The translations under genes and the position numbers were made by a program. 64,000 nt of DNA, from contig NC_007677.1 in NCBI RefSeq assembly GCF_000013045.1, forward strand, positions 682,001 to 746,000, in the 5' to 3' direction. The notes below the pieces were generated by a model, which worked only from the letters and a program-made list of their open reading frames with translations, ran no database searches and was not told the origin of the DNA. This document shows positions 52,603 to 58,985 of the stretch, piece by piece. Position 1 is the stretch's first letter; each line of letters begins with the position of its first letter. This DNA is from Salinibacter ruber DSM 13855 (GTDB lineage Bacteria; Bacteroidota; Rhodothermia; Rhodothermales; Salinibacteraceae).

Positions 52603-53985
52603 ATGACACCGGACGAAGTCCGCAGGACACGAGCCACCGTGGTGGGCGGCGCCCGCAGTGGGCGCGCCGCGGCCCGGCTGCTGGCGAAGGTGGGGGGCGA
52701 GGTGTTTCTCACCGAGCAGGACGCCCCGTCGGACGGGGCCGCGGCGGCCCTCGACGAGGCCGGCGTCGAGTACGAGTTTGGGGGGCACACGGCCGAGGCC
52801 CTCGACGCCGACGTTCTTGTGCTCAGTCCCGGGGTGCCCACGCAGTCGAACATCGTGCAGCAGGCGCTGCGGGCGGGACTCGACGTGTACTCCGAAATTG
52901 AGGCGGCGTCCTGGTTCTGCGACGCGCCCATCGTGGCCATCACCGGTACCAACGGCAAGACGACCACGACGAGCCTCACCGGGCACGTTTTCCGAACGGC
53001 ATTCGCGGACACCCTGGGCCGGGAGGCCATCGTGGCCGGCAACATCGGGTACCCGTTTTCCGACTACGTGCTCGAGACGGAGCCGACAGACGTGGTGGTA
53101 CTGGAGGTGTCCAGCTTCCAGCTCGACCACGTGGAGACGTTCCGCCCGCGCGTGAGCGTGCTGCTGAACATCACGCCCGATCACCTGGGGCGCTACGACC
53201 ACGACTTCGAGGCCTACGCGCAGGCCAAGCACAACATTTTCCGCAATCAGGGCGAGGGCGACGTGGTGGTCTACAATCGGGACGATGACGACGTACGGAA
53301 CGCCGCGGAGGAGGCGGCCGCGGAGCAGGGCGTCCGCCCGATGGCCATCACCAGAGAGGGGGTGCCGGCGGCCGGGGCCGGATTCCGGGACGGCCGCATC
53401 GTGCTTCGAACCGACGACGAAGACGATTCGCTTATGCCTCAGGACGAGCTCGCCCTTCGAGGGCGTCACAACATGTACAACTCGCTTGCGGCCGCCGTCT
53501 CGGCTCGTGTGATGGAGGTCGAGAACGACGTCATTCGCGAGAGCCTGTCCGGCTTCGAGGGCGTGCCGCACCGGCTGGAGGAGGTGCACACGGTGGACGA
53601 CGTGCTGTACGTCAACGACTCGAAGGCCACCAACGTGAACGCGGTCTGGTACGCCCTGGAGAGCTTCGACCGGCCCATCGTCCTGATTGCCGGGGGCCGA
53701 GACAAGGGAAACGACTACACGGACCTCAAGCCGCTCGTTCGCGACCAGGTGCGGGCGGTGGTGGCCCTCGGGGAGAGTGCCGAGAAAGTGGAGCGGGAGC
53801 TTGGCGGAGAAGCCCCCGACCACAGCCGAGCGGAGACGATGGAGGACGCCCTGACCCAGGCCCAGCGCGCGGCCCAGCCGGGCGACGTGGTGCTGCTGAG
53901 CCCGGCGTGCTCCTCCTTCGACATGTACGAGAACTACGAGGAGCGGGGCGACACCTTCCGCCGCCTCGTGGAGACGCTGCTATAG
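52603..53985 (+). CDS. murD: UDP-MurNAc-L-alanine--D-glutamate ligase
   Basis: This is a 460-residue ligase that adds D-glutamate. The N-terminal Rossmann part starts TVVGGARSGRAAARLL (the usual G-x-G-x-S-G), the ATP loop is ITGTNGKTTTTSL, with LEVSSFQLDHVETF, NITPDHLGRYDH and YVNDSKATNVNA plus LIAGGRDKGNDYTDL in the C-terminal domain. An ATG at 52540 would add 21 residues; the later start matches family length better. The 114 bases after it hold a heptad inverted repeat. Confidence 0.95.
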   Translation: MTPDEVRRTRATVVGGARSGRAAARLLAKVGGEVFLTEQDAPSDGAAAALDEAGVEYEFGGHTAEALDADVLVLSPGVPTQSNIVQQALRAGLDVYSEIEAASWFCDAPIVAITGTNGKTTTTSLTGHVFRTAFADTLGREAIVAGNIGYPFSDYVLETEPTDVVVLEVSSFQLDHVETFRPRVSVLLNITPDHLGRYDHDFEAYAQAKHNIFRNQGEGDVVVYNRDDDDVRNAAEEAAAEQGVRPMAITREGVPAAGAGFRDGRIVLRTDDEDDSLMPQDELALRGRHNMYNSLAAAVSARVMEVENDVIRESLSGFEGVPHRLEEVHTVDDVLYVNDSKATNVNAVWYALESFDRPIVLIAGGRDKGNDYTDLKPLVRDQVRAVVALGESAEKVERELGGEAPDHSRAETMEDALTQAQRAAQPGDVVLLSPACSSFDMYENYEERGDTFRRLVETLL

Positions 53986-53988
53986 GAA

Positions 53989-54052
53989 TTACGTGTTGCG
54001 TATTGCGTATCCGATCGTCTCTCCGACCACGTACGCAATACGAAATACGCAC
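53989..54052. repeat. Heptad inverted repeat between murD and ftsW (TTGCGTA type)
   Basis: Left arm: TTGCGTA at 53996-54002 and again at 54003-54009, preceded by TTACGTG. Right arm: TACGCAA (54032-54038), TACGAAA and TACGCAC (to 54052), the reverse complement type. GTATTGCGTA (54000-54009) pairs perfectly with TACGCAATAC (54032-54041) across a 22-base loop. Confidence 0.75.
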
Positions 54053-56523: not shown

Positions 56524-57951
56524 ATGGCTGAACTTCGAACACAACCGGCTTTGGGCCGCATCCGCCAGGTCCACATGGTGGGCATTGGCGGCATCGGCAT
56601 GAGCTCCATCGCCGAGGTGCTCCTGAACCGCGGCTACGACGTGACGGGCTCGGACCTGGAGCGCAGCGACGTCACCGAGCGCCTGGAGGCGGAGGGGGCG
56701 ACCATTCACGAGGGGCACGCCGCCGAGCAGGTGGGCACGGCCGACGTGGTGGTCTATTCCAGTGCCGTCGACCCCGACGAGAACCCGGAGACCCGCGAGG
56801 CCGAACGCCGCCGCATCTCGCTCATCCCGCGCGCCGAGATGCTGGGTGAGCTGATCCGGATGAAGTTTGGCGTCGGCGTGGCCGGCACCCACGGCAAGAC
56901 GACCACGACCTCGATGGCGGGGCTCGTGGTGGCCGAGGGGGGCTTCGATCCGACCGTGATCGTGGGGGGGAAGGTGACGGCCTTCGGCTCCAACGCCATC
57001 ACGGGGGAGGGCGACGTCCTCGTGATTGAGGCCGACGAGTACGACCGCACGTTCCTGCGCCTTACGCCGTCGCTGGCGGTCATCACGAGCATCGAGGAGG
57101 ATCACCTCGACGTGTACGAGGACCTGGCGGCCATCCAGGCGTCCTTCACGCAGTACGCCAACAGCGTGCCGTTCTTCGGGGCGGCCATCCTGTGCCTCGA
57201 CGACCCAAACGTGCAGGCCATCGTCGGCGACGTGGAGCGCCGCGTCGTGACCTACGGCACGACACGCCAGGCGGAGGTGCGGGGCGAGAACGTCCGGCGG
57301 GAGGGCATGACGACCCGGTTCGACGTGGTGGTGCGCGGAGAGCGCCTCGGCACCATCGAGCTGCACGTGCCGGGCATGCACAACGTGCGCAACGCGCTTG
57401 CCGCCGTGGCGGTGGGCCAGGAGCTCGAGATTTCGTTCGAGCGGGTGCGCGACGGGCTCGGCACCTTCACCGGCGTCCGCCGCCGGTTCGAGAAGAAGGG
57501 AGAGGTGGGCGGCATCACGGTGCTCGACGACTACGCCCATCACCCAACCGAAATTGAGGCGACCCTGGACGCGGCCCACCAGGGCTTTCCCGACCGCCGT
57601 GTCGTCGCGGTCTTTCAGCCGCACATGTACTCCCGCACTCAAAACTTCATGGACGAGTTCGCCTGCTCCTTCTTCAACGCCGACATGCTCGTCCTGACCG
57701 ACGTGTACGGGGCGCGCGAGGCGCCGATCGAAGGGGTGACCGGGGGGCGCCTGGCCGAGCGGGCCGAGCAGTTCGGGCACCGGGCCGTGCACTACGTGCC
57801 GGAGAAGACCGACCTCCCGGGCCGCCTGCAGGAGCTCGTGGGGCCGGGCGACGTCGTCCTGATGCTGGGTGCGGGCGACATCTGGCGCGCGAGTGAGGCC
57901 TTCGTGGAGCTACTTGAAAACGACGGTGGGACAGCAATTGAACGCGACTGA
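56524..57951 (+). CDS. murC: UDP-N-acetylmuramate--L-alanine ligase
   Basis: This is a 475-residue ligase, first of the Mur peptide ligases. It has HMVGIGGIGMSSIAEVLLNRG at the N-terminus, the ATP loop GTHGKTTTTSM, EADEYDRTFLRLTP, ITSIEEDHLDVYED and HHPTEIEATLDAA in the C-terminal domain. ddl and murB are not adjacent, unlike in proteobacteria. A large heptad inverted repeat fills the 147-base gap to ftsQ. Confidence 0.97.
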   Translation: MAELRTQPALGRIRQVHMVGIGGIGMSSIAEVLLNRGYDVTGSDLERSDVTERLEAEGATIHEGHAAEQVGTADVVVYSSAVDPDENPETREAERRRISLIPRAEMLGELIRMKFGVGVAGTHGKTTTTSMAGLVVAEGGFDPTVIVGGKVTAFGSNAITGEGDVLVIEADEYDRTFLRLTPSLAVITSIEEDHLDVYEDLAAIQASFTQYANSVPFFGAAILCLDDPNVQAIVGDVERRVVTYGTTRQAEVRGENVRREGMTTRFDVVVRGERLGTIELHVPGMHNVRNALAAVAVGQELEISFERVRDGLGTFTGVRRRFEKKGEVGGITVLDDYAHHPTEIEATLDAAHQGFPDRRVVAVFQPHMYSRTQNFMDEFACSFFNADMLVLTDVYGAREAPIEGVTGGRLAERAEQFGHRAVHYVPEKTDLPGRLQELVGPGDVVLMLGAGDIWRASEAFVELLENDGGTAIERD

Positions 57952-57964
57952 ATTTTGATCGACG

Positions 57965-58052
57965 GTGTGATGCGTGAGGCGTGACGAGTGAACCGTGACG
58001 TGTGAGAACAGGGCGTTCGCTCTCTTCACGCTTCACGTTCCACGAATCACGA
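57965..58052. repeat. Heptad inverted repeat between murC and ftsQ (nnGTGAn type)
   Basis: The left arm is six perfect 7-base units (57965-58006), each of the form nnGTGAn. The right arm is four 7-base units (58025-58052) of the opposite-strand type nnCACGn. An 18-base spacer (58007-58024) lies between. Period is kept without any insertion in either arm. Confidence 0.85.
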
Positions 58053-58098
58053 ATTCTCCGGCCGTTTCAACAAACACGACGATCATTTTTCGACACTC

Positions 58099-58878
58099 AT
58101 GACACGGGACCAAACTGCGACATTCGGACGCCATGCCCTCCGCGTCGCGGGGAGCGGGCTCCTCGTGGCGGGCGTCGTGGCGCTGGGCCTCCTGGGTTGG
58201 CAGTGGCGGGCGAACGTGACGGTGGACCGGGTGGCCGTGACCGGGGCGCAGCACGCCCCGCCCGACACGCTGCGCCGCCTGGCCCGTGTGGGCCGCGGCA
58301 CGGCGATGCGGGCCGTGGCGCCGATGCTCGTGGCCGATCGGGTGGCCCGCCACCCGTGGGTGAAAGAGGCGACCGCCGAGACGCAGTGGATGCAGGGCGC
58401 CCTAACGATTTCGGTCACCGAGCGCACCCCCGCGGCCCTCGCGGTGGACGCGCAGGGCCGTCCGGCCTACTACCTCGACCGGAGCGGCCACGCGATGCCC
58501 CTGCCCGACAGTGCCGGGTACGACGTGCCGCTCGTGCGGGGCCTCGAGGCGGAGGCCCCCTGGACGCAGCCCGACACCGCACAGACCCCGTCGTCGCTGC
58601 GTCGGGTGCTTCGGGCCCTCCCCGAGGCGGGGGTGGCCGACCTCGTGGCCGAGATTGAGATGCAGCCCGACGATGCGATCCAACTTACGACGACCCCGAT
58701 CGGCCCGCACGACGCCCTGCCGGTGCACCTCGGGAGCGGCAACGTGTCCCGAAAACTGCGCACGCTCCGCGCCTTTGCGCGCCAGGTGCTCGCATCGTCG
58801 CCGGACGAGCCGATCGAACGCATCGACCTCCGCTTCGATGGACAAGTGGTCACCCGAACGCGCCCGCTCGACGGATAA
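58099..58878 (+). CDS. ftsQ: FtsQ-like cell-division protein
   Basis: This 259-residue bitopic protein has a short cytoplasmic N-terminus, a membrane helix near residues 16-34 (GSGLLVAGVVALGLLGW) and a POTRA domain (about 40-110: VDRVAVTGAQHAPPDTLRRL, HPWVKEATAETQWM, ALTISVTERTPAALAV). The beta domain follows (about 115-259) with YYLDRSGHAM. FtsQ links FtsL and FtsB to early divisome proteins. Family identity is low; helix plus POTRA plus context gives the call. Confidence 0.9.
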   Translation: MTRDQTATFGRHALRVAGSGLLVAGVVALGLLGWQWRANVTVDRVAVTGAQHAPPDTLRRLARVGRGTAMRAVAPMLVADRVARHPWVKEATAETQWMQGALTISVTERTPAALAVDAQGRPAYYLDRSGHAMPLPDSAGYDVPLVRGLEAEAPWTQPDTAQTPSSLRRVLRALPEAGVADLVAEIEMQPDDAIQLTTTPIGPHDALPVHLGSGNVSRKLRTLRAFARQVLASSPDEPIERIDLRFDGQVVTRTRPLDG

Positions 58879-58917
58879 TGCATGCGATCCGGTCTTCATA
58901 GTGCGCTGTGCTCTGCT

Positions 58918-58985
58918 CAGTGATGAGTGACGTGTGAGCCGCGGGACGGCACGCGCCATCGCGCATCACGAATCACGACTCAGCC
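58918..58985. repeat. Heptad inverted repeat between ftsQ and ftsA (nnGTGAn type)
   Basis: Left arm of three perfect units (58918-58938): CAGTGAT, GAGTGAC, GTGTGAG. Right arm with two exact copies of ATCACGA (58965-58971, 58972-58978) and one broken unit to 58985. The unit type is the same as in the array before ftsQ. Confidence 0.75.

Follow-up and report, generated by a model that had tools for sequence, protein, structure and literature searches.

The array under study lies between murC and ftsQ, in a gene order (murG, murC, ftsQ, ftsA, ftsZ) that is backed by Pfam domains, within a window, that is, the whole 64,000-nt stretch of DNA analysed here, from a genome of 3,587,328 bases (Table 1). 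The sequence-only reading had described six GTGA units facing four units of the complementary type in an exact 7-bp period, and the core positions confirm it: GTGA starts at 57967, 57974, 57981, 57988, 57995 and 58002 in the left arm and CAC at 58027, 58034, 58041 and 58048 in the right arm, where the full motif is TCAC at 58026, 58033 and 58047 and CCAC at 58040. The arms do face each other across a spacer, although this measures 20 bp and not the 18 bp claimed. As that reading had also noted, there is no T-run 3′ of 58050; an intrinsic terminator was rejected for this reason and because it would stand inside the dcw (cell-division / cell-wall) gene cluster. The window has three heptamer hairpins in this cluster, the other two being a second one of the GTGA type and one of a different, CGTATT type, which sits directly 3′ of the murD stop codon (53983-53985). 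The names murD and ftsW are presumed from recognition of the translations.

Table 1. Positions of the heptamer hairpins and neighbouring features in the window.
Feature	Position	Strand	Units, domains or basis
Left arm, six GTGA cores, exact 7-bp period	57967..58005	+	
Left-arm units		+	GTGATGC GTGAGGC GTGACGA GTGAACC GTGACGT GTGA
Inter-arm spacer, 20 bp	58006..58025		
Right arm, four complementary-type units	58026..58050	-	TCAC, TCAC, CCAC, TCAC
murC stop codon TGA, 15 bp ahead of array	57949..57951	+	
ftsQ, gene downstream of array	58099..58878	+	POTRA_1, FtsQ_DivIB_C
Second GTGA heptamer hairpin, ftsQ-ftsA gap	58913..58983		
CGTATT-type heptamer hairpin, murD-ftsW gap	53988..54052		(NCGTATT)n - spacer - (AATACGN)m

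The 7-bp period had been held to exceed chance, and neither the window nor the gap reproduced the array when shuffled. In the window, runs of at least four in-phase copies are formed only by GTGA and by CACG of the opposite arm. When the 64 kb were dinucleotide-shuffled 30 times, the longest run to arise was one of four, seen once; there were no more than three in-phase copies in any of 5000 shuffles of the murC-ftsQ gap (146 bp), and the expectation for six in-phase GTGA is about 1e-8 per genome from base composition. When compared with dinucleotide shuffles, the RNA of positions 57961-58060 folds with z = -2.5 (-42.0 kcal/mol).

Is the array a peculiarity of this gap? Pattern searches of the same genome for other 7-bp arrays matched four in-phase GTGA (at most 2 mismatches) 89 times, where the reversed control scored 14, and the 89 matches group into about 37 clusters between genes. 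The exact hairpin GTGANNNGTGA-(3-33)-TCACNNNTCAC was matched 22 times, overlapping matches in one element being counted separately, against 0 for the control. The murC-ftsQ array is a member of a dispersed family of non-coding heptamer hairpins. Their general architecture comprises tandem degenerate GTGANNC units, a spacer of about 10-35 bp and the same units on the opposite strand.

The clusters tend to follow genes and avoid divergent gaps. Co-directional gaps hold 30-31 of the 37, convergent gaps 4 and divergent gaps 2; the last are under-represented (p = 0.009; divergent gaps hold 23% of the gap bases in the window). Most begin no more than 50 bp from the stop codon of the upstream gene, which more than a dozen of them overlap, as judged from gene calls by a simple codon-usage script in which starts are rough and stops more reliable. 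This location, together with the membership of the window copies in the dcw cluster, is what might be expected of a functional intercistronic or 3′-end RNA stem-loop, REP-like in action, that would be transcribed behind the stop codon and slow 3′-5′ exonucleases or attenuate read-through, tuning upstream versus downstream expression. Nevertheless, neutral tolerance predicts an identical location. Folding gives a divided answer, since 14 of the 37 clusters have z < -2 but the median is -1.5 and the majority fold not significantly better than shuffles. The variable bases of the two arms do not covary: their match in register is 0.54 versus 0.52 shuffled in G302, a genome of the same phylum, and 0.48 versus 0.54 in the own genome, so that the complementarity between arms that marks a structured RNA is found in neither. 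The pooled contigs described below show a small nominal excess (0.63 in register versus 0.60 out). The arms show no more pairing of their variable bases than composition alone would give, and there is thus no sign of selection for a well-paired stem. The hairpin proposed by the sequence-only reading therefore stands as regards facing arms and the better-folding copies, and falls as regards pairing of the variable bases. The lack of a T-run, of an Rfam match and, as shown below, of significant core conservation between sister species also speaks against a stem-loop function, which we regard as rather unlikely. A known RNA family was rejected, since no Rfam family matched the elements up to E = 1; a fold-back origin, in which one arm is copied onto its partner, was rejected too, the complementary N positions it predicts being absent in G302 and in the own genome.

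Homologous gaps were compared between related species. Related arrays occupy the murC-ftsQ gap in four genomes (G000, which is the own genome, and G005, G011 and G001), arrays of differing sequence are found there in G008 and G006, and none was seen in this gap in G002, G003 and G004; arrays thus recur both in relatives and at other loci. In 27 orthologous gaps compared with the sister species G005, unit-sized gain and loss and whole-element replacement were observed. G005 differs by 14 bp at 2752466 and by 7 bp at 1265238, and shows a long 14-bp-period expansion at 461817; the gap at 1429288 carries a GTGA hairpin in G000 and a CGTATT hairpin in G005. Some G000/G005 indels are not multiples of 7. 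The locus pair L059 (G000:C1:2752466-2752526) and L263 (G005) consists of a GTGATGC/GTGAATT alternation with a difference of exactly 14 bp, and a long 14-bp-period array lies near C1:2350138 of G005. With six gaps of poor or non-homologous alignment left out, cores have diverged by 9.9% between G000 and G005, spacers by 11.8%, N positions by 12.9% and the C preceding the core by 14.0%; the mostly coding flanks differ by 7.3%. The core value does not differ significantly from that of N plus C (Fisher p = 0.15), and choosing units by an intact core in one or the other species has biased it downwards. These values suggest that little purifying selection acts on the core between sister species. 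Against G011, whose murC-ftsQ element is 82% identical, a hand count on the alignment gave about 1/40 core changes and 6/24 N changes, which hints that the core may be maintained over longer times.

Dispersed copies, and differing elements in one gap between sister species, could also be left by a non-autonomous mobile element of MITE or REP type that uses a transposase in trans, and the own genome carries two Y1_Tnp genes. However, no Y1_Tnp was found in the array-bearing G001, G004, G005 and G006, by eye the aligned gaps reveal neither constant ends beyond the heptamers nor a target duplication, and the sequence is free to vary among copies. We consider mobility of this kind highly unlikely. 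The two Y1_Tnp genes (IS200/IS605-like, 133 aa, G000:C1:266515 and 836475) are not found in several sister species. REP elements are likewise dispersed extragenic palindromes, but they are single palindromes of 20-40 bp, most of them tagged at one end by GTAG or CGTC (PMC3733652), whereas the elements described here are heptamer arrays in which inspection found no constant tag beside a short palindrome. They also have no link to Y1_Tnp, which does not accompany them in every element-bearing genome, and RAYT/REP mobilisation was rejected on the four genomes named above. Of the three options that the sequence-only reading had offered, namely a hairpin, a protein platform and a small self-copying repeat, the last comes closest to the evidence in its dispersal, unit gain and loss and replacement, although no enzyme could be linked to it.

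The repeat extends well beyond the genus. Among 394 genomes of the phylum, 14 from 7 genera carry a stricter 3+3 GTGA hairpin, and one matches its reversed control; hairpin matches numbered 18 in G310, 9 in G391 and 91 in G302, a genome very rich in these hairpins. Two elements of the latter (G302:C1:1271612 and G302:C1:1283263) have a common central spacer in opposite orientation, whereas their outer units differ, which hints that element centres may be copied or inverted. GTGA hairpins also occur in at least 118 GTDB contigs (stretches) from many phyla, where about 0.03 would be expected by chance under uniform composition. Titles among the matches listed include Chloroflexi, Acidobacteria, Verrucomicrobia, Bacteroidetes, Cyanobacteria, Gemmatimonadetes, Planctomycetes, Armatimonadetes, Nitrospirae, Geobacter, several proteobacterial groups and Bacillota, many of them being metagenome bins for which a single phylum label is unreliable.

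Two features of these elements are strikingly regular, their polarity and their period. GTGA-first hairpins number 22 in the own genome and TCAC-first ones 0; TCAC-first matches are also 0 in G005, G302 and G310, and 1 in G391. The CGTATT type gave 11 inward matches and 0 outward in the genus, where a strict pattern finds its inward pairs in 6 of the 13 genomes. In 777 kb of GTDB contigs from other phyla, with the GTGA arrays masked, exact tandem runs of period 7 number 38 and those of period 14 number 25, whereas the control periods gave 1 (period 5), 4 (6), 9 (8), 4 (9), 3 (10), 1 (11), 5 (12) and 1 (13); these contigs were picked for carrying a GTGA hairpin and the counts describe such genomes, not all bacteria. 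The same contigs contain 17 inverted 7-periodic pairs with other cores, versus 0-5 at other periods. CGTATTN, GATTGGA and GTAGGGT are cores of like architecture, and the G/T-rich arm is the left one in 15 of 19 other-core pairs (p = 0.02). Seven is the special period, and the GTGA core is not special. Since CGTATTN and other stop-less cores share the architecture, a six-frame stop cassette, in which GTGA at 7-bp steps places TGA in all frames, was rejected as a general explanation. Within arrays, cores are 92-98% intact, a figure raised by the selection of arrays with intact cores, and N positions are highly variable.

The strict 7-bp phase, the intact GTGA cores beside free N and the inward arrangement recall a row of DNA heptads occupied by adjacent dimers of a small ribbon-helix-helix protein, such as omega2 of pSM19035, in a nucleoid or regulatory complex. 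Indeed, contact by a protein every 7 bases had been one of the initial suggestions, and a precedent exists for it: the sites of omega on pSM19035 are WATCACW heptads in tandem, direct or inverted, and binding is best to at least 4 contiguous ones (PMC9499535), and GTGAT, the complement of ATCAC, is a frequent unit in the arrays. Both systems have contiguous 7-bp units with an ATCAC/GTGAT core in direct or inverted order. Nevertheless, the omega heptads occupy six plasmid promoter sites, contiguous and without a spacer, and have a known cognate protein, whereas the copies described here are located after genes and not at promoters, share with WATCACW the TCAC core and not the W positions, and have no cognate family found, the omega family having no member above the Pfam cut-off in 11 array-bearing genomes; omega itself was rejected as reader on this basis. 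Core conservation is weak, and because CGTATTN, GATTGGA and GTAGGGT arrays share the architecture, one reader protein cannot explain the class. A protein platform thus appears distinctly unlikely.

How do these elements relate to known heptamer repeats? A text search of titles and abstracts for heptamer strings returned no paper on elements like these. Heptanucleotide repeats have been described as the commonest class of long simple sequences in most genomes, with polymerase slippage as the proposed cause (Mrazek 2007, as cited in PMC4679880 and PMC4692102). The Xanthomonas and Nostoc heptamers (GGGNATC and GGGGA(T/C)T; PMC4692102) and the cyanobacterial STRRs are, like the elements reported here, dispersed intergenic tandem heptamers with degenerate positions, lying between genes of one direction, where they overlap a stop codon or come within 50 bp of one, and rarely in divergent gaps; some of the Xanthomonas and Nostoc heptamers even form convergent inverted pairs (PMC4692102). 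Unlike them, our elements have a GTGA core and not a G-tract, so that a quadruplex is not expected, and their pairing is commonly inverted, strictly inward and found in many phyla. Xanthomonas units are degenerate too, as in (GGGANTN)n (PMC4692102), and therefore the variable N marks a variant and does not exclude the elements from the STRR/LSSR class, with which they share tandem 7-bp units beyond chance, dispersal over many intergenic loci of one genome and whole-unit length variation between close relatives (2752466, 1265238 and 461817). The TAACTGA repeats of Beggiatoaceae, Cyanobacteria and Bacteroidetes are also intergenic heptamer arrays common to distant lineages, and forward TAACTGA repeats, like GTGA arrays, put stop codons in all three frames; they differ in having an invariant heptamer, in lying mostly upstream of start codons and in being almost never inverted, with one indirect repeat in the genome studied there (PMC4679880). 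Geobacter metallireducens carries multicopy heptanucleotide/octanucleotide elements of tandem short units, mostly paired and some on opposite strands, with other cores and partly 8-bp units; they have been called putative global regulator sites, a proposed function (PMC2700814). We place the present elements in the heptameric simple-sequence class, as a variant with degenerate units and strict inward pairs.

We tentatively favour, with confidence a little short of even, the interpretation that the array is an STRR/LSSR-like simple-sequence repeat produced by replication slippage plus template switching, and tolerated after genes without an important function. According to this model, the elements would owe both their origin and their turnover to errors of DNA replication, which would proceed in 7- or 14-bp steps. 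While the hairpin is being copied, the nascent strand might stall and re-align on another unit through the shared core, so that units that lose the core would drop from copying while N positions drift. If stalled nascent ends always carried the G/T-rich arm, the polarity could follow. The space just past stop codons is permissive and would let the elements survive; their transcription there probably yields an imperfect stem-loop that affects the mRNA mildly at most. Such an origin would account for the period, the unit indels, the dispersal into permissive sites and the near-neutral decay. However, plain slippage predicts neither the strict inward polarity (22:0 for GTGA, 11:0 for CGTATT in the genus) nor intact cores beside highly variable N, and random birth does not predict one GTGA core in many phyla. 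A more radical proposal, which we judge distinctly improbable, is that inward heptamer hairpins with interchangeable cores are built behind the genes of many phyla by a widespread bacterial process that writes or reads DNA 7 bp at a time, through an enzyme or a repeat-binding factor that acts on G/T-rich strands; it would fit because polarity is strict in two core types, the period is common across cores and cores stay intact beside free N.

Why heptamers dominate among bacterial simple repeats has been a question since at least 2007. The inward polarity, the 7-bp step, the interchangeable cores and the phylum spread are constraints on any mechanism, be it slippage, template switching, a binding protein or an enzyme. 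In this respect, a probably cultivable halophile with three such hairpins in its cell-division / cell-wall cluster provides a compact test bed.
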